This document shows, piece after piece, positions 15,451 to 22,361 of a stretch of 64,000 nucleotides of DNA. Below the pieces are notes generated by a model. It worked only from the letters and a program-made list of their open reading frames with translations. It was not told the DNA's origin and did not search any database. This stretch comes from Flagellimonas marinaquae (GTDB lineage: Bacteria; Bacteroidota; Bacteroidia; Flavobacteriales; Flavobacteriaceae): NCBI RefSeq assembly GCF_023716465.1, contig NZ_CP092415.1, positions 3,664,408 to 3,728,407 on the forward strand, in the 5' to 3' direction. The stretch's first letter is position 1, and each line of letters opens with the position of its first letter. A program made the position numbers and the translations under genes.

Positions 15451-16512
15451 ATGACACAAACACTCAAAACCATGGGCAAACTTTTTTTCGCAACAACTAC
15501 ATTGCTTTTCTTTTTGGCCTGTGGCGGTAATCCCGACCCGGCCAAGCACTTCTCCATTCAGCTGGAAAACAAATCAATACAGCTAAACCAGCAGGTGGGT
15601 GTTGCTTTAAAGAACAAAAAGGACATCGAAATTTCGAATCTGCAGTACTTAATAGATGGTAAGGAAATGCCCCTCACCAATGGAAAATTGACCATGGCCC
15701 TGCCCACTTTGGGCACCAAAACACTTATTGCCAAGTTCAATATTGAAAATCAAACCGTAGAAGTTGAAAAAGAGATCAGGGTATTGGCGGAGTCGGCACC
15801 AGAAATTTACACCTACGAAATTTTGAACACCTACCCCCACGATACCGGGGCCTATACACAGGGCCTGGAGTTTCATGAAGGAGTTTTATATGAGAGTACA
15901 GGCAAAAAAGGAGCTTCCACTGTGCGAAAGGTCAATTTTGAGACGGGAGAAGTTATGCAACAGATCGATATGGATGCCTCTATATTCGGAGAGGGCATTA
16001 CTATACTGAACGATAAATTGTATCAACTTACCTGGCAGAGCGGTATCGGCTTTGTGTACAACATTGGCGATTTGGAAAAAATCAAAAACTTTACCTATGG
16101 TAAAAGTCGCGAAGGATGGGGCCTGTGCAACGATGGCGATAAAATATTCAAGAGCGACGGCACCGAAAAAATATGGTTCTTGGACCCAGATACCCTTGAA
16201 GAAACCGGATACATTGAGATAGCGACCAACAAATCAATTTTTAATAAGGCCAACGAACTGGAATATGTGAACGGAAAAATTTATGCCAACGTGTACCAAA
16301 AGGAGAGCATGATGATCATAGATGCAACATCCGGTGCTATAGAGGGTGTAATTAATTTTGGAGGTCTAAAAAATAAAGTGAAGAAAGGTGCTGAATGGGA
16401 CGATAACAATTCGGTGCTCAATGGGGTTGCCTATCATCCAGAAAAGAAAACTTTTTTTGTGACCGGTAAAAACTGGGACAAACTTTTTGAGGTAAAAATC
16501 CTTAAGAAGTAG
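15451..16512 (+). CDS. glutaminyl-peptide cyclotransferase, lipoprotein
   Basis: A 353-residue exported protein. The lipobox FFLAC is near residue 24, followed by an unassigned beta domain (about 30-110). The rest is the five-bladed glutamine cyclotransferase propeller: TYPHDTGAYTQGLEF, LYESTGKKGAS, GEGITILNDKLYQLTW, GWGLCNDG and NELEYVNGKIYANVY are the family's repeated signatures. The enzyme turns N-terminal glutamine into pyroglutamate; in Bacteroidota this matters because many exported proteins begin with Gln after signal cleavage. Start ATG 15451 or ATG 15472. The thioesterase gene follows after two bases. Confidence 0.92.
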   Translation: MTQTLKTMGKLFFATTTLLFFLACGGNPDPAKHFSIQLENKSIQLNQQVGVALKNKKDIEISNLQYLIDGKEMPLTNGKLTMALPTLGTKTLIAKFNIENQTVEVEKEIRVLAESAPEIYTYEILNTYPHDTGAYTQGLEFHEGVLYESTGKKGASTVRKVNFETGEVMQQIDMDASIFGEGITILNDKLYQLTWQSGIGFVYNIGDLEKIKNFTYGKSREGWGLCNDGDKIFKSDGTEKIWFLDPDTLEETGYIEIATNKSIFNKANELEYVNGKIYANVYQKESMMIIDATSGAIEGVINFGGLKNKVKKGAEWDDNNSVLNGVAYHPEKKTFFVTGKNWDKLFEVKILKK

Positions 16513-16514
16513 TA

Positions 16515-16904
16515 ATGCGGAGTTATACCGAAACCTTAAAGGTTGTCCAAAATGATCTGGACGACCTGAACCACGTAAACAATATCCGGTATATTGAATG
16601 GATTCAGGATATTTCCAAAAAACATTGGACTTCTGCTACGTCGCAAGGAACTCAAAAGAGTATGATCTGGGTGGTCCGCAACCACAATATCACATACCAT
16701 AAATCCGCCTTATTGGGCAATACCCTACACCTGAAAACGTACATAAAAAGCAGCAAAGGGCCCATATCGACCCGTGTGGTGGAAATTACAGACCGCAAAA
16801 CGGGAGATCTTTTGGTAAAAAGTGTAACGGAATGGTGCCTGTTGGACGCAAGGACTTTCCGTCCCAAACGAATTCCTGAAGAAATCAAAGCACTTTTTGA
16901 ATAA
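16515..16904 (+). CDS. acyl-CoA thioesterase, hotdog fold
   Basis: A 129-residue single-domain 4HBT-like hotdog protein. The motif DLDDLNHVNNIRYIEWIQD (about residues 14-32) includes the Asp/His-Asn region that marks the YbgC/FatA-type active site. It probably hydrolyses an acyl-CoA or acyl-ACP; the chain length is unknown. The start codon lies two bases after the stop of the cyclotransferase gene, so they are one transcript, though no functional link is obvious. It is a different paralogue from the one at 63458. Confidence 0.85.
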   Translation: MRSYTETLKVVQNDLDDLNHVNNIRYIEWIQDISKKHWTSATSQGTQKSMIWVVRNHNITYHKSALLGNTLHLKTYIKSSKGPISTRVVEITDRKTGDLLVKSVTEWCLLDARTFRPKRIPEEIKALFE

Positions 16905-17369: not shown

Positions 17370-18104
17370 ATGGAATACACCTATAACATAATAGACTCGG
17401 ATGCATCTTCTAAGCTACAGTTACAGCTGTACTTGGAGGAATACGATGATTTTATGTGCACAAGTGTCGACACCAATGCCTCGGCAGGTCTAAATTCCAT
17501 TTTAAAGTTCAACCCCGATGTGGTGCTTATCAATCTAGGTAAAGATGGTGTGGATTACTTCCAAATGGTCGCGGAACTCAACCAATATACGCAGACACTT
17601 CCCTTAATAATAGGGTACGCCAAAACCAAGGCATATGCATACAATGCCATTAAGAGCGGATTTTTTGATTATTGGATCCTGCCCCATAACGAGTTTGATA
17701 TAAGAAAAACAGTTTTGCGTTTGCGCAAGATGCATCCAAAGCAAGATACCCCCTCCACTATCTGTTTAAAATCATATAAAGATTACAGATACTTGGATAT
17801 GAACAACATCCTATATCTAAAATCCGATAACAACTCTACCGATTTTTTTATGAAGGACGGGAGCGTTGTCAGCGCTTTTAAAACCCTGAAATCTTTCGAA
17901 AAACAATTGCCAGGGCAATTTATCCGGGTACACCAGAGTTATATCATCAACAGCCGATATGTTTCTCGGATAAACTATGGCAAATCCATTTGCAGCCTTA
18001 ATTATGGTAAAGTAGAGGAACTTCCTTTTTCCAAGACCTACAAGGACAAGGTGGATCTTTTAAAGCAAACACTCTCCAAAACAGCAACAAAGGCCCTTAA
18101 TTAA
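17370..18104 (+). CDS. LytTR transcription factor with pseudo-receiver
   Basis: A 244-residue protein: a receiver-like domain (about 1-125) and a C-terminal LytTR DNA-binding domain (about 135-235, with ICLKSYKDYRYLDMNNILYL and FIRVHQSYIIN). In the receiver, the strand that should end in the phospho-acceptor Asp reads PDVVLINL, giving Asn at residue 55; the acidic pair is IIDSD rather than DD, and the conserved Lys-Pro is replaced by ILP. Phosphorylation is therefore unlikely and the protein may be constitutive or controlled otherwise. No partner LytS-type kinase is adjacent. Repeats upstream suggest autoregulation. It opens the signalling island running to 21.5 kb. Confidence 0.85.
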   Translation: MEYTYNIIDSDASSKLQLQLYLEEYDDFMCTSVDTNASAGLNSILKFNPDVVLINLGKDGVDYFQMVAELNQYTQTLPLIIGYAKTKAYAYNAIKSGFFDYWILPHNEFDIRKTVLRLRKMHPKQDTPSTICLKSYKDYRYLDMNNILYLKSDNNSTDFFMKDGSVVSAFKTLKSFEKQLPGQFIRVHQSYIINSRYVSRINYGKSICSLNYGKVEELPFSKTYKDKVDLLKQTLSKTATKALN

Positions 18105-18140
18105 CAGAATTCTAACAGATCATAATCAAATTCTAGCAGA
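18102..18140 (+). promoter_or_regulatory. in-phase direct repeats upstream of the small lipoprotein gene
   Basis: TAACAGA at 18102 and 18113 and TAGCAGA at 18134; the larger repeat unit AATTCTAACAGA (18108-18119) / AATTCTAGCAGA (18129-18140) is 11 of 12 identical with starts 21 bases apart. Spacing of one and two helical turns suggests a dimeric activator site for the LytTR protein or an OmpR-type regulator (inference). Confidence 0.45.
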
Positions 18141-18206
18141 AACCTTGGCTTTACTACTCCCCGGCCAAAACTACTTCGCTTACTTAAAATGCCCCATAAT
18201 TTAGCC

Positions 18207-18229
18207 GGTATAAACCTAATATTTATACC
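18207..18229 (+). promoter_or_regulatory. perfect inverted repeat before the small lipoprotein gene
   Basis: GGTATAAA (18207-18214) and TTTATACC (18222-18229) form a perfect 8-base inverted repeat with a 7-base spacer. It interlocks with a 12-base direct repeat, AAACCTAATATT at 18212-18223 and 18232-18243, the second copy ending exactly at the ATG. It could be an operator or a hairpin in the leader. Confidence 0.45.
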
Positions 18230-18243
18230 AAAAACCTAATATT

Positions 18244-18417
18244 ATGAAAAAAGTATTTAGCATTTTAGCATTGGCCTTGTTAACAGTAGGATTCTACTCT
18301 TGTGAAACCGAAACGGATGTACAGGAAACCGAGGCCCTGTTCGAACAACTTACCATTGACGAGAGCGCAAACGATGATGATGTTATTCCTCCTGACGGAC
18401 GTGGTGACAACGAATAA
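18244..18417 (+). CDS. 57-residue acidic lipoprotein
   Basis: A short reading frame with a clear SPII signal: MKKVFSILALALLTVGFYSC, Cys at residue 20. The mature part is only 38 residues and strongly acidic (ETETDVQETEALFEQ, then ANDDDVIPPDGRGDNE at the C-terminus). No known family is recognised. It lies 139 bases after the LytTR gene, behind dense repeats, and 15 bases before a second small gene; a strong terminator follows that one, so the two form their own transcript. The position next to a TPR kinase and response regulator suggests a sensed or signalling envelope peptide, which is only inference. The signal peptide makes coding very likely. Confidence 0.75.
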   Translation: MKKVFSILALALLTVGFYSCETETDVQETEALFEQLTIDESANDDDVIPPDGRGDNE

Positions 18418-18432
18418 TTGATCTTGCTAATT

Positions 18433-18642
18433 ATGCCAAAACCTCACATAAATAAACTTTTTGCCTTAGTTCTGATTGTATTGACCATACTTTTATATAA
18501 AAAAGACGAGAAATTGGAGCAGAGCCTAGCGCTTACCACTGAATTAAGTCAACAAGAGATATCGTTACAACAAAGAATTGAAATGGGCCTGAGAAAGAAT
18601 AGCCTTATAAGGTTACAACAAAGCCCCACGGATATTCGCTAA
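18433..18642 (+). CDS. 69-residue membrane-anchored coiled-coil protein
   Basis: Starts at ATG 18433, 15 bases after the lipoprotein stop. One N-terminal hydrophobic helix (KLFALVLIVLTILLY, about residues 8-22) is followed by a charged, Gln/Glu/Leu-rich stretch of heptad character (KLEQSLALTTELSQQEISLQ and on) ending in SPTDIR. It is probably a single-pass inner-membrane protein with a short coiled coil outside. I do not recognise a family. A Rho-independent terminator lies 28 bases downstream, which separates it from the kinase gene. Codon use resembles the neighbours, which supports real coding. Confidence 0.6.
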   Translation: MPKPHINKLFALVLIVLTILLYKKDEKLEQSLALTTELSQQEISLQQRIEMGLRKNSLIRLQQSPTDIR

Positions 18643-18670
18643 AACCAATGTAACAATACTATAAAACCAC

Positions 18671-18702
18671 GCCCCAAACTAAACTGCTTTGGGGCTTTTT
18701 TT
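18671..18702 (+). terminator. Rho-independent terminator
   Basis: Perfect stem GCCCCAAA (18671-18678) / TTTGGGGC (18688-18695), 9-base loop, then seven T. It ends the small lipoprotein/coiled-coil transcript ahead of the kinase gene. Confidence 0.9.
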
Positions 18703-18731
18703 GTTACCTTGGTTAAATAAATCACATTAGT

Positions 18732-20816
18732 TTGAAGAACGTAACCTTTGCTATACTGGCAGTATTGATCTGGGGGTGCACCAAGCAGTCCCCTAAAACC
18801 GAGGCAACTACCAGCCCGGAACTAGATTCCATACAGGAGCTGGTAAACATTGCCAAGACCGCAAAAGAGCTGTCCTTGGAGGACAAAAAGGTCTATTTAA
18901 AACAAGCGGAAGAAAAATCCATGGCCCTTTCGAACGACTCCATCAAGCTTGAACAACTCTCTAAAATTTCTTTGGCCTATTTAAAACTAAGGGACTCTTT
19001 AAATTTTAGGAGATCCAATCAAGAATTGATCAAGCTATCGCAGAACGCTAAATCAAACAAGGTGTTGGGCTATTCCAATTGGGACTTGGCTCTTTTTTTA
19101 CAATCCAAAGGCGTTATGGACAGTGCTATGTTTTATTATCGCAATGCATTAAAAAGTTTCGAAAAAATGCCTGTGGACTCCACTTCAAAATCACTCCGCG
19201 CAAGAATGTATTACGGAATGGCTCGGGTACAAGACTCTTACAAGGATTATTTGGGCGGTGAGATCAGCACCACTGCCGCCATAAAAATATTCGATGACCT
19301 GGAAGATAATTATAGACTTCATAGTAGTTACAATTTACTAGGTGTGCTTGCCAAAGGATTGGGAAATACCGAAAAATCGATTGAATCCTACAATAAAGCC
19401 CTCGAATATCTAGATAAATCAGATAATCCCGGTAAAAACAAATCGAAATGGGTTATCCAAAACAATATCGCCAGTGTGTATTTAAATGCAGGGGATTATG
19501 AAAAAGCTAAGCAAGAATACAAACAGCTTTTATCGGATAATGCTTTTAAGCAAAACTTACCGGGCACATACCAAAAAGCCTTGGGCAGTTTTGCCTACAC
19601 TGTTTTAAAACTGGACAACGATGCCGAGCAAGCAGAACAGCTCCTAAACGAAGCTTTTGTGGTAAACGCAGAATATGGCGATTTATACGATCGTGCCCGC
19701 CTTAATTATTACTATGCAGAGGTCTTGGCCGCTAAAAAAGACACCCTACAAGCTATTGCCCAAGCCAAGGAATCGTTCGAGGTTGCCAAAGAAACCTACA
19801 ACAACGACCGTATGTTGGACGCACTGCGGTTGTTGAACGGCCTAGATCCGGCCAATTCTAAATCGTATTTTGAGGAATATGCCCAATTAAGCGATATTAT
19901 AAAGGTAGAGGAACGAACCAAACGAGATAAATTTGCCAGAATACGATTGGAAACCGATCAAGTTATCGAAGCCAACCAAATTTTGATCAAGGAAAAACAA
20001 GTTTGGATATACTTTACCGCTCTTTTTATAACTTTTGGTATCGGATTTTTGATCATTATTTCCCTTTATGTGAGCAACAGTCAATTAAAATCGAAACAGC
20101 GCCTACAGGAGAGCAATCAAGAAATTTACAATTTAATGCTATCCCAACAAGGAAAGTTTAAAGAAGGTAAACAATTGGAACAAAAACGAATATCCGAAGA
20201 GCTGCACGATGGTATTTTGGGAGAAATGCTGGGCATACGACTTATTTTAAGTGGATTGAACGAAAGAAACGACCAAGCCTCAATTGACCAAAGAACCAAT
20301 TTAATAGAAAAACTACGTCTTGTTGAAGAGGAAATTCGCACAATTTCCCATGAACTGAACCATGCATCCTATGAAAAATTTCATAATTTTATCGTGTCCA
20401 TGGAAGACATGATCAACGAAATTGAGAAATCGTCCGGCATGAATTGTTCCTTTGCTTACGACAAAAAATTAAATTGGGACAATTTGCTGGGAGACATTAA
20501 GATCAATGCCTATAGAATAGTTCAAGAATCATTAAAAAACTGTGTAAAACACGCAAAAAGTCAAAATGTATCCATATCCTTTCAATCAACCAACGGCAGA
20601 TTAAAACTAACCATAACCGACGACGGTGTTGGTTTTGATCCCAGTAGAAAAAAGAAAGGAATCGGGTTAAGGAACATTGTTTCCAGAGTTAAAAAAGTTA
20701 AAGGAGTTTTGGACATTGACAGTCGGCCCGGGAAAGGCACCTCTATAATGGTTACCATGCCGGCCAAATATGTTGAGTTCGAAACAACGGACCAAAACCA
20801 TGTTGTAAACGCATAG
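18732..20816 (+). CDS. TPR sensor histidine kinase, NarL/HisKA_3 class, lipoprotein-like N-terminus
   Basis: A 694-residue kinase. The N-terminus (VTFAILAVLIWGC) looks like an SPII signal, then a periplasmic TPR array covers about 45-400. A transmembrane helix (about 424-447) leads to a coiled coil and a HisKA_3 domain with the phospho-acceptor His in EELHDGILGEMLG (His492), then an HATPase with HELNHASYEKF, the N-box region and the GIGLRNI and GKGTSIMV glycine motifs. It should phosphorylate the adjacent response regulator in reply to an envelope signal bound by the TPRs. The start is TTG at 18732; no good ATG precedes the signal. The regulator gene follows after 27 bases. Confidence 0.88.
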   Translation: MKNVTFAILAVLIWGCTKQSPKTEATTSPELDSIQELVNIAKTAKELSLEDKKVYLKQAEEKSMALSNDSIKLEQLSKISLAYLKLRDSLNFRRSNQELIKLSQNAKSNKVLGYSNWDLALFLQSKGVMDSAMFYYRNALKSFEKMPVDSTSKSLRARMYYGMARVQDSYKDYLGGEISTTAAIKIFDDLEDNYRLHSSYNLLGVLAKGLGNTEKSIESYNKALEYLDKSDNPGKNKSKWVIQNNIASVYLNAGDYEKAKQEYKQLLSDNAFKQNLPGTYQKALGSFAYTVLKLDNDAEQAEQLLNEAFVVNAEYGDLYDRARLNYYYAEVLAAKKDTLQAIAQAKESFEVAKETYNNDRMLDALRLLNGLDPANSKSYFEEYAQLSDIIKVEERTKRDKFARIRLETDQVIEANQILIKEKQVWIYFTALFITFGIGFLIIISLYVSNSQLKSKQRLQESNQEIYNLMLSQQGKFKEGKQLEQKRISEELHDGILGEMLGIRLILSGLNERNDQASIDQRTNLIEKLRLVEEEIRTISHELNHASYEKFHNFIVSMEDMINEIEKSSGMNCSFAYDKKLNWDNLLGDIKINAYRIVQESLKNCVKHAKSQNVSISFQSTNGRLKLTITDDGVGFDPSRKKKGIGLRNIVSRVKKVKGVLDIDSRPGKGTSIMVTMPAKYVEFETTDQNHVVNA

Positions 20817-20843
20817 TCCCCCAAATTAATAAGAATACCTACG

Positions 20844-21512
20844 ATGAAAACACTACGAATACTTGCAATAGACGACCATGAAATGACCATGCTCGGGTAC
20901 AAGTTTATACTCGAAGGCATAGAATTCGATGGCCACAATATTATAGTCGATACAGCTACCTCTTACCACACAGGTAAAAAACTGATAGAGGATTCCGTGA
21001 ATACCTTTAAATACGATATCCTTTTTTTGGATGTCCAACTTTTTGCCCCAAATGAAGACCAGCCCTATACCGGTGAGGATCTTGGTATTTTGGCCCGTAA
21101 AATTGTTCCCGAGAGTAAAATTGTTTTTATGTCTTCCTTTAGCGACAACTTTAGGATCAACAGTATATTGAAATCCGTGGATCCAGATGGTTACCTGGTT
21201 AAAACGGATATTGACCCCAAAACGCTGGAAGAAGCCGTTAGAACCATAATGACAGAGCCTCCTTATTATTCGTCCAAGGCATTGGGGGCCATAAGAAAAA
21301 AGATGGCCAATGACATAGAAATAGACGAGAAGGACAAACAAATACTATATCACCTTTCCAAAGGAACAAAGAACAAGGATCTGGAAAAATTTATCAGGCT
21401 CTCCCCATCTTCCATTGAAAATAGAAAAAGGCACCTAAAGACATTGTTCGGAACCGAAAACGAAAACGATCTTGCCCTTATCTTAGCCGCAAAAAACCGA
21501 GGTTTTATTTAG
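20844..21512 (+). CDS. response regulator, partner of the TPR kinase
   Basis: A 222-residue two-domain regulator. The receiver (about 4-145) has the acidic pair IDD (residues 9-11), the phospho-acceptor in LFLDVQL (Asp63) and the lysine in YLVKTD. The C-terminal part (about 158-220; DEKDKQILYHLSKGTKNKDLEKFI, then LSPSSIENRKRHLKTLFGTEN) is a divergent LuxR/NarL-type helix-turn-helix. It sits 27 bases after the kinase, so the two are a pair. A longer than usual segment follows the phospho-site (FAPNEDQPYTGEDLG). The targets are unknown; the small lipoprotein operon nearby is the obvious candidate. Confidence 0.88.
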   Translation: MKTLRILAIDDHEMTMLGYKFILEGIEFDGHNIIVDTATSYHTGKKLIEDSVNTFKYDILFLDVQLFAPNEDQPYTGEDLGILARKIVPESKIVFMSSFSDNFRINSILKSVDPDGYLVKTDIDPKTLEEAVRTIMTEPPYYSSKALGAIRKKMANDIEIDEKDKQILYHLSKGTKNKDLEKFIRLSPSSIENRKRHLKTLFGTENENDLALILAAKNRGFI

Positions 21513-21692: not shown

Positions 21693-22361
21693 ATGTCATC
21701 ATCAAATAAACCAAATAACAATCATAAAAAATCTGGTCCAAAAACCTATTTGGCCACCGATGGATTGGATGATTTTTTACGCGTACTCGAAAAGTATTTT
21801 TTCGCTACTGCCAAAGTAATTTGCAGGCACGATTCAAAAAACCATTCCACTAATCTGGTCATCGACCTTCATCATAATTTTGGTATAGGGGAATGCCTAC
21901 GTCATTTTAACAATGGCGATTGGGGCAATTATAATTTTGTAGAAGAGACCCACTCGGACATATCCAAATCGTTGGACAAAGCACTGGAGGTCCTGAACAA
22001 TAAAAGTCCCTATCCCATGGACATTTTAGAGCTATCTCTCCATTTTAAGGATACCTCTATCGTTATAACCCGTTTGCACAAGAACAGCATCCTCGAAGAG
22101 GCCAGCAATATTTTAACGGCCATAGGCAAACACTTTGTCTATTTTACCAAAGGATTGACCGAAATGCCGTATGAGATTTTTGTTCCTGTTTTTGAAGACA
22201 ATAACGCCGCTATCCAAAAGAAAACCTCTACACTAAGAACAAAATGCGGTTATTACGATTATTGGGGCCTTTACTTTGATAAAGGACAAAAGCACAAGGC
22301 CCTAATATATTCCCTACGAAAGAAAAAACTGTTCGACGAAAGTATTTTCTTGTACGAATAA
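21693..22361 (+). CDS. conserved protein of unknown function
   Basis: A 222-residue soluble protein with a basic, Asn/Ser-rich N-terminus (MSSSNKPNNNHKKSGPK) and no signal or membrane segment. The body has mixed alpha/beta character, e.g. TNLVIDLHHNFGIGECL and DILELSLHFKDTSIVITRLH, and ends FDESIFLYE. I recognise no family or catalytic motif. It lies 180 bases after the response regulator, behind a spacer that carries a sequence resembling the region before the LytTR gene, so it may share that control. Overlapping frames in the spacer lack support. It is convergent with glyA. Confidence 0.6.
   Translation: MSSSNKPNNNHKKSGPKTYLATDGLDDFLRVLEKYFFATAKVICRHDSKNHSTNLVIDLHHNFGIGECLRHFNNGDWGNYNFVEETHSDISKSLDKALEVLNNKSPYPMDILELSLHFKDTSIVITRLHKNSILEEASNILTAIGKHFVYFTKGLTEMPYEIFVPVFEDNNAAIQKKTSTLRTKCGYYDYWGLYFDKGQKHKALIYSLRKKKLFDESIFLYE

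Follow-up and report, generated by a model that had tools for sequence, protein, structure and literature searches.

A small exported lipoprotein beside a TPR histidine kinase as a candidate peptide-signal precursor in Flavobacteriaceae

Genes and features of the cassette

A stretch of 64,000 nucleotides from Flagellimonas marinaquae (contig NZ_CP092415.1, positions 3,664,408 to 3,728,407; called here the window) carries, between its positions 17370 and 21512, a cassette of five genes that includes a 57-residue exported lipoprotein and a tetratricopeptide repeat (TPR) histidine kinase. An earlier note on this DNA had described five genes of this make-up on one strand. The corresponding open reading frames (ORFs) are confirmed in the window sequence at those positions, all on the + strand, and Pfam, in part below threshold, agrees with the assignments of the larger three. 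The features of the cassette are as follows.

17370..18104, + strand: LytTR regulator with a pseudo-receiver (Pfam LytTR, 5.9e-15; Asn55 at the phospho-acceptor position)
18108..18140, + strand: direct repeat AATTCTNNCAGA with a 21-bp period, candidate LytTR binding site (from sequence)
18197..18205, + strand: TAATTTAGC, a possible, weak -7 promoter element (from alignment across the genus)
18244..18417, + strand: 57-residue exported lipoprotein, candidate peptide precursor (leader, lipobox, linkage)
18370..18414, + strand: its C-terminal tail NDDDVIPPDGRGDNE, candidate signal peptide region, in single copy (from comparison with relatives)
18433..18642, + strand: 69-residue exported or membrane small protein with a D-x-R tail, candidate second precursor (from genus alignment)
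18671..18703, + strand: intrinsic terminator of the precursor unit, stem 18671-18695 followed by a T run (fold z -4.1)
18732..20816, + strand: TPR histidine kinase of lipoprotein type, starting at TTG, candidate receptor (Pfam, alignment, model)
18816..19844, + strand: TPR superhelix predicted for the periplasmic part of the kinase, covering model residues 29-371 (predicted local distance difference test, pLDDT)
20844..21512, + strand: LuxR/NarL-type response regulator, receiver Asp present in FLDVQ (sequence, weak Pfam)

Judged by its sequence, the 57-residue protein belongs to a family of small exported proteins whose genes lie immediately 5′ of TPR histidine kinases in Flavobacteriaceae, and represents its single-copy form. 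In keeping with the acidic lipoprotein and the LytTR regulator of the earlier note, it combines a lipobox-like FYSC with an acidic tail, and the LytTR protein, whose receiver domain is sub-threshold in Pfam, lacks a phospho-acceptor, with Asn55 replacing Asp. The description of the kinase as lipoprotein-type and accompanied by a regulator also holds. The kinase matches HATPase_c, TPR and, below threshold, HisKA_3, in the order lipoprotein-type signal, TPR, transmembrane segment and HisKA_3/HATPase, with no helix-turn-helix (HTH) among its Pfam matches. The regulator shows a sub-threshold receiver, a very weak LuxR-type HTH (GerE, E 0.097) and sub-cut-off NCBIfam matches. This is the canonical two-component layout of TPR kinases, a HisKA_3/HATPase kinase followed by an Asp-bearing receiver-HTH regulator, with HisKA_3 and HTH here below cut-off. 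One placement has to be corrected: the 69-residue protein was said to stand behind its own terminator, but the stem at 18671-18695 lies 3′ of that gene and before the kinase, so that the two small genes are on its 5′ side and the kinase is on its 3′ side.

Conservation and linkage of the small protein and the kinase

Three sets of loci were compared: a genus set of 24 genomes, the window's own included; a family set of 299 Flavobacteriaceae genomes, in which relatives of the LytTR regulator were collected at E 1e-40 or better; and a named set of 80 loci. Orthologues of the LytTR regulator, the lipoprotein and the kinase are each present in 23 of the 24 genus genomes, and G002 is without all three. 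The genes are adjacent in those 23 except in G003 and G012, where contig ends cut through the kinase. Within the genus the LytTR regulator is 67-91% identical and the kinase 49-72% over full-length matches (45-88% for contig fragments). Cys16 of the kinase is kept in 90% or more of an alignment of 48 kinases. The lipoprotein is 40-96% identical; its leader and lipobox are kept while the tail varies, except that one tail Arg is invariant in 23 of 23 aligned sequences.

A homologue search with the lipoprotein returned 299 relatives. Among the best 120 of these, 117 carry D/E-x-R inside the last 14 residues, and source names are mostly 'hypothetical', 'secreted' or 'uncharacterized', with three automatic ones (LolB twice, LpoB). 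The tails differ strongly from genus to genus. The 57-residue and 69-residue proteins match nothing above cut-off in Pfam or NCBIfam, and seven precursors of other genera gave no Pfam match (E 0.01) and one sub-cut-off NCBIfam match.

Relatives of the LytTR regulator occur in at least 80 of the 299 family genomes, at 84 or more places; the searches scored the best nine (LytTR) and three (kinase) candidates per genome, and the counts are thus lower bounds. The 82 places beyond the genus were inspected as 81 loci, six of which are common to the named set. A kinase lies downstream of the LytTR gene inside the stretch in 73 of the 81. An export-signal ORF follows the LytTR gene, 5′ of any kinase, in 72 by rule and in seven more by eye (L122, L164, L181, L192, L202, L210 and L211), where the first start codon was too far 5′ or the ORF was broken. 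Two loci, L179 and L205, have neither an export-signal ORF nor a kinase, and there the LuxR gene comes directly after the LytTR gene; the Flavivirga loci L256 and L267 (the latter the same locus as L205) are likewise without both precursor and kinase.

The earlier note had proposed surveying Flavobacteriaceae for this gene order and its co-occurrence. In the named set a kinase is found within 1.5 kb of the LytTR gene in 67 loci, and an export-signal ORF lies upstream of the kinase in 67 of 67. Small genes that are absent or unlinked in most genomes with the kinase, which that note would have counted against its idea, are not what is seen for the lipoprotein, but the 69-residue gene does lack this linkage outside the genus. 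After the kinase, 58 of these 67 loci encode a relative of the LuxR-type regulator, which is likely to be the partner of the kinase.

The association extends to kinases away from LytTR matches. All ten such kinases in a first sample have a small export-signal ORF upstream (L216, cut by a contig end, was excluded), although one of them, L222, turned out to lie near a distant LytTR relative. Of twenty further kinases not beside a LytTR gene, 19 have the upstream ORF; G078 and G083 hold a LytTR match elsewhere. Many precursors of LytTR-less kinases are other sequence types, for example with the leader MKTLKIT and a tail ending TNG or TQG. As a control, 24 TPR kinases from beyond the family were used, which are more distant and have estimated starts; such an ORF lies upstream of 5 of them.

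The 69-residue gene is present in 20 of the 23 genus genomes with the cassette (none was seen in L016, L018 and L022) and occupies the corresponding place in additional named species of this genus; no counterpart was seen in the loci inspected from other genera. Its product has a fast-evolving body, a hydrophobic N terminus that in some species has a Cys, and a tail Arg that is invariant in 20 of 20 aligned sequences. Where the two genes occur together, in 23 genomes (20 from the genus set and 3 named-set loci), both tails have D/E-x-R. When the lipoprotein and 69-residue tails of the same genome are compared, the BLOSUM score is 158 versus 78 ± 16 for shuffled pairings (0 of 20,000 shuffles reach it), phylogeny not being removed.

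Repeated tails, TPR fold of the candidate receptor and putative regulatory DNA

Tandem repetition of the tail is seen in about 29 loci: 17 in the named set, three second cassettes and nine others. The repeated C-terminal unit spans 11-41 residues and occurs in up to ten copies. Zobellia barbeyronii has ten copies of STDGDDVQIDRRGS, the final one ending RDS; Arenibacter has four to five 28-residue units, each made up of a constant core and a variable spacer; and Maribacter thermophilus has three LACDNCDNPIDRRDPPK.GIA copies with diverged spacers between them. A Dokdonia (RMTDDEDDLPGQGN) and Flavobacterium frigidarium (DIIGGSSTGGNVKVD) provide further examples. The repeat rule picks out 14 of the 80 export-signal ORFs in the gap and 3 of the 668 that lie elsewhere in these loci, and each of those three (L289, L291 and L297) lies directly 5′ of a second TPR kinase. 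These three loci are Flavobacterium-type, with two consecutive TPR kinases, the first of which is preceded by an export-signal protein of 120-130 residues.

Adjacent copies differ at a synonymous proportion (pS) of 0.331 and a nonsynonymous proportion (pN) of 0.027, a ratio of 0.083 (26 arrays, with regions set by nucleotide similarity). Periods were taken from the protein repeats, and the array of L285, which is misphased, contributes three codons. A whole-unit ratio of 0.43 was set aside because its region ran into the non-repeated leader, and a ratio of 0.043 anchored by regular expressions was not used because it is biased to conserved cores. By these values many of the copies are not of recent origin, and what has been preserved is the peptide and not the DNA.

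Several copies per kinase are also reached through tandem precursor genes, in L316, L323 and L356, each of which has four such genes 5′ of one kinase. Those of L356 are small lipoprotein-type genes with the tails YTDGDMEQR (three) and YNGNDIEQR. In L316, nonsynonymous changes number 3/274 in the tails versus 21.5/495 in the leaders. Furthermore, four Aquimarina loci (L257, L258, L259 and L269) have two precursor genes each, and the tails are mutually best matches in three of the four.

The structure model of the kinase has a mean pLDDT of 85.5, with 10-residue blocks at 88-97 from residue 31 onward. The TPR domain, predicted to be periplasmic, has structural matches to LGN, RapI, NprR and RapF, and as modelled it resembles peptide-binding TPR proteins, including the Rap/NprR pheromone receptors.

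Across the genus, a direct repeat of 21-bp period lies between the LytTR and precursor genes, less clearly in the most divergent members; LytTR sites are typically spaced 21-22 bp. The best 10-base match at a lag of 21 averages 7.78 versus 6.25 (s.d. 0.17) at 21 other lags in 65 named-set loci. At three or fewer mismatches, the pattern of 18108-18140 has a single match in the genome, itself exact, and none in 100 shuffles of the window. The earlier note had placed the small transcript under one or both regulators; control by the LytTR protein is supported, short of proof, by this conserved repeat 5′ of the gene. The TAATTTAGC element aligns across the genus and has similar elements in other genera, and a -7-like motif lies within 100 nucleotides in 22 of 65 named-set loci versus 2 of 65 shuffled sequences. 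A terminator between precursor and kinase is found in 35 of 62 named-set loci versus 0 of 62 shuffled sequences and 1 of 62 upstream stretches.

The acceptor column of 78 aligned LytTR sequences holds N31, E30, D8, H4, Q2, G1, S1 and R1. Because Asp is missing in 70 of the 78, the window's included, the LytTR protein was rejected as the kinase's own response regulator on the main path. Flavobacterium-type LytTR proteins (L275, L277 and L279-L301) mostly carry Glu at the acceptor position, which could mimic phosphorylation. In L171 a tandem pair of LytTR genes lies 5′ of a repeat-bearing precursor.

A candidate peptide signal and its alternatives

We consider it probable that the tail of the 57-residue lipoprotein is exported and serves the adjacent kinase as a peptide ligand; the kinase would signal to the LuxR-type regulator, and the LytTR regulator would set precursor expression. 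The lipoprotein would be a peptide-signal precursor, exported through its own signal peptide. Its acidic C-terminal tail, free or tethered, would bind the periplasmic TPR domain and alter the kinase, leading to phosphorylation of the LuxR-type regulator. The LytTR protein, with a receiver that could not be phosphorylated in the usual way, would bind the 21-bp direct repeat and set expression of the precursor unit, which would end at its own terminator. At the genus level the 69-residue protein may be a second precursor, and the tail may be released by cutting and act between cells. What the sequences themselves show is the linkage, the export signals, the repeated tails with purifying selection on the unit, the 21-bp repeats, the terminator and, as a model, the TPR fold. 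A leader with a short repeated unit under purifying selection, linked to a kinase and jointly absent with it from the locus, is the pattern expected of a dedicated peptide ligand and receptor. The earlier note had left the small lipoprotein as either a signal or a reporter of envelope state; the former has gained much from the repetition of the tail under purifying selection, the strict linkage and the joint absence with the kinase, and the latter has gained nothing. More broadly, we see an even chance that Flavobacteriaceae hold a large family of linear peptide pheromones, often made from multi-copy precursors and encoded beside lipoprotein-type TPR histidine kinases with an extramembrane pheromone-receptor-like TPR fold, that has diversified between species and in places been duplicated within a genome.

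Several observations weigh against a peptide ligand. Most precursors have the unit only once, as the window's does. In the tandem genes of L323, conservation is no higher in the tail than in the leader (13/268 versus 14/475), one of the four Aquimarina tail pairs has no mutual best match, and the within-genus match between the lipoprotein and 69-residue tails ignores phylogeny. TPR superhelices are common, and O-GlcNAc transferase, designed TPRs and BBSome subunits also match the model. Tail similarity between loci follows that of the TPR domain only weakly after similarity in the kinase domain and LytTR has been taken out (partial r 0.15), and the kinase domain gives 0.11. The export rule is permissive, finding an upstream ORF for 57 of 233 other genes, and a stricter one missed 5 of the 67 named-set kinases (62 found, 5 by eye). 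Two genomes with a shortened locus hold more distant TPR kinases elsewhere (four matches); L356 has precursor genes by rule, whereas L355, L357 and L358, with uncertain starts, show none by the rule. The repeat pattern read backwards also has one genome match, and control DNA gives 6.62 at lag 21 versus 6.11 at other lags; because 21 is a multiple of three, codon periodicity accounts for part of this signal, which coding DNA shows too. Finally, the lipobox of many precursors, the window's included, would leave them tethered unless cut, and no protease for the precursor was identified.

Tethering leads to the strongest rival, in which the small protein remains in its own cell's envelope and its tail, as part of an accessory subunit, sets or inhibits the kinase. 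Such a subunit might report lipoprotein traffic or envelope state, and repeats would raise the local ligand dose. We regard this co-sensor as unlikely. It would explain the lipobox in the window's lipoprotein family, the Glu directly after SC in 118 of the 119 SC-bearing proteins among the best 120 of the 299 relatives and the lipoprotein-type signal of the kinase itself. However, several precursors without a leader Cys keep both the export signal and the tail (L160, L161, L164, L168-L171 and Flavobacterium loci), so tethering is not the conserved property, and the identical units with diverged spacers of L231-L233 are more expected if units are cut free. A reporter of envelope stress as such has no support in the sequence and is retained only within this co-sensor reading.

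Two other explanations seem very improbable to us. A ribosomally synthesized and post-translationally modified peptide (RiPP) or bacteriocin with several core peptides, for which the kinase would be a regulator or immunity sensor, would account for the repeats, as multi-core precursors are known from RiPPs. It could also draw on the glutamine-cyclotransferase-like gene that the window and 32 of 80 named-set loci have further 5′, since enzymes of that type can modify peptide N termini. Yet the flanks vary between clades (a tRNA-synthetase gene versus the thioesterase), so the cyclotransferase does not accompany the cassette throughout; no other modification enzyme was found among eight window proteins and ten flanking proteins of L240, L252 and L288, and none of those scanned lies directly beside the precursor, for which reason the RiPP assignment was set aside. 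The export signal, moreover, is of the ordinary hydrophobic kind, and a double-glycine leader is absent. RiPP clusters of Bacteroidales are the subject of PMC10352776. Equally improbable is a surface lipoprotein or repeat antigen that lies beside the kinase by chance. Small surface lipoproteins are common in Bacteroidota, and strong tail differences between genera would suit an antigen, but the strong purifying selection on repeated units within a gene, the linkage in 67 of 67 loci and the joint lack of small protein and kinase in some loci argue otherwise.

The proposed ligand and receptor share features with known systems. RRNPP systems (Rap, Rgg, NprR, PlcR and PrgX, with Phr/NprX pheromones) likewise have a TPR superhelix as receptor, a feature the kinase model shares along with its matches to RapI, NprR and RapF, and a small exported precursor gene beside the receptor gene. 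In contrast, the TPR domain here is predicted to be periplasmic in a membrane histidine kinase of Gram-negative hosts, whereas an RRNPP receptor is a cytoplasmic regulator or phosphatase; the kinase, by its domain order, lacks the cytoplasmic location with HTH or Rap phosphatase function and the peptide re-import that define that group. Agr and ComCDE/Blp of Firmicutes also encode a peptide precursor, a membrane histidine kinase and a LytTR-type regulator together; the 21-bp direct repeats present 5′ of the precursor here are a candidate for the LytTR site of such systems. They differ from the present TPR-HisKA_3 kinase with a LuxR-type regulator behind it and a pseudo-receiver LytTR, which is not the phosphorylatable partner of those systems, and no AgrB or double-glycine transporter is among the eight window proteins scanned. 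Eukaryotic multi-copy pheromone precursors such as that of yeast alpha factor carry several near-identical peptide units per exported precursor; this is a comparison of layout, with no homology claimed. The PG1828 family lipoprotein (NCBIfam NF050142) is also small, but the match is weak (24 bits versus a cut-off of 50) and covers residues 1-31, the signal-peptide region alone.

The earlier note knew of no described system of this composition, and the open-access PubMed Central titles and abstract openings retrieved by searches, a coverage that leaves subscription papers and preprints outside, likewise contain no description of a precursor-TPR kinase system.

Most known peptide signalling through dedicated precursors is that of Gram-positive bacteria, Flavobacteriaceae are important marine polysaccharide degraders, and we know of no description of the stimuli of TPR kinases. 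If our proposal is correct, Flavobacteriaceae would have a species-specific peptide language, a common sensor class would be assigned a ligand, and density or kin sensing in these bacteria would be directly testable using synthetic peptides.

The flanks of the cassette hold further genes. A glutamine-cyclotransferase-like lipoprotein and a thioesterase are encoded 5′ of the LytTR gene (15451-16904, + strand) and recur in 32 and 31 of 80 named-set loci. In relatives (27 loci) a 514-residue protein without a Pfam match, which has no match in the window, is encoded between the thioesterase and LytTR genes. On the other side, a 222-residue protein without a Pfam or NCBIfam match (21693-22361, + strand) has relatives 3′ of the cassette in 31 of 80 named-set loci.

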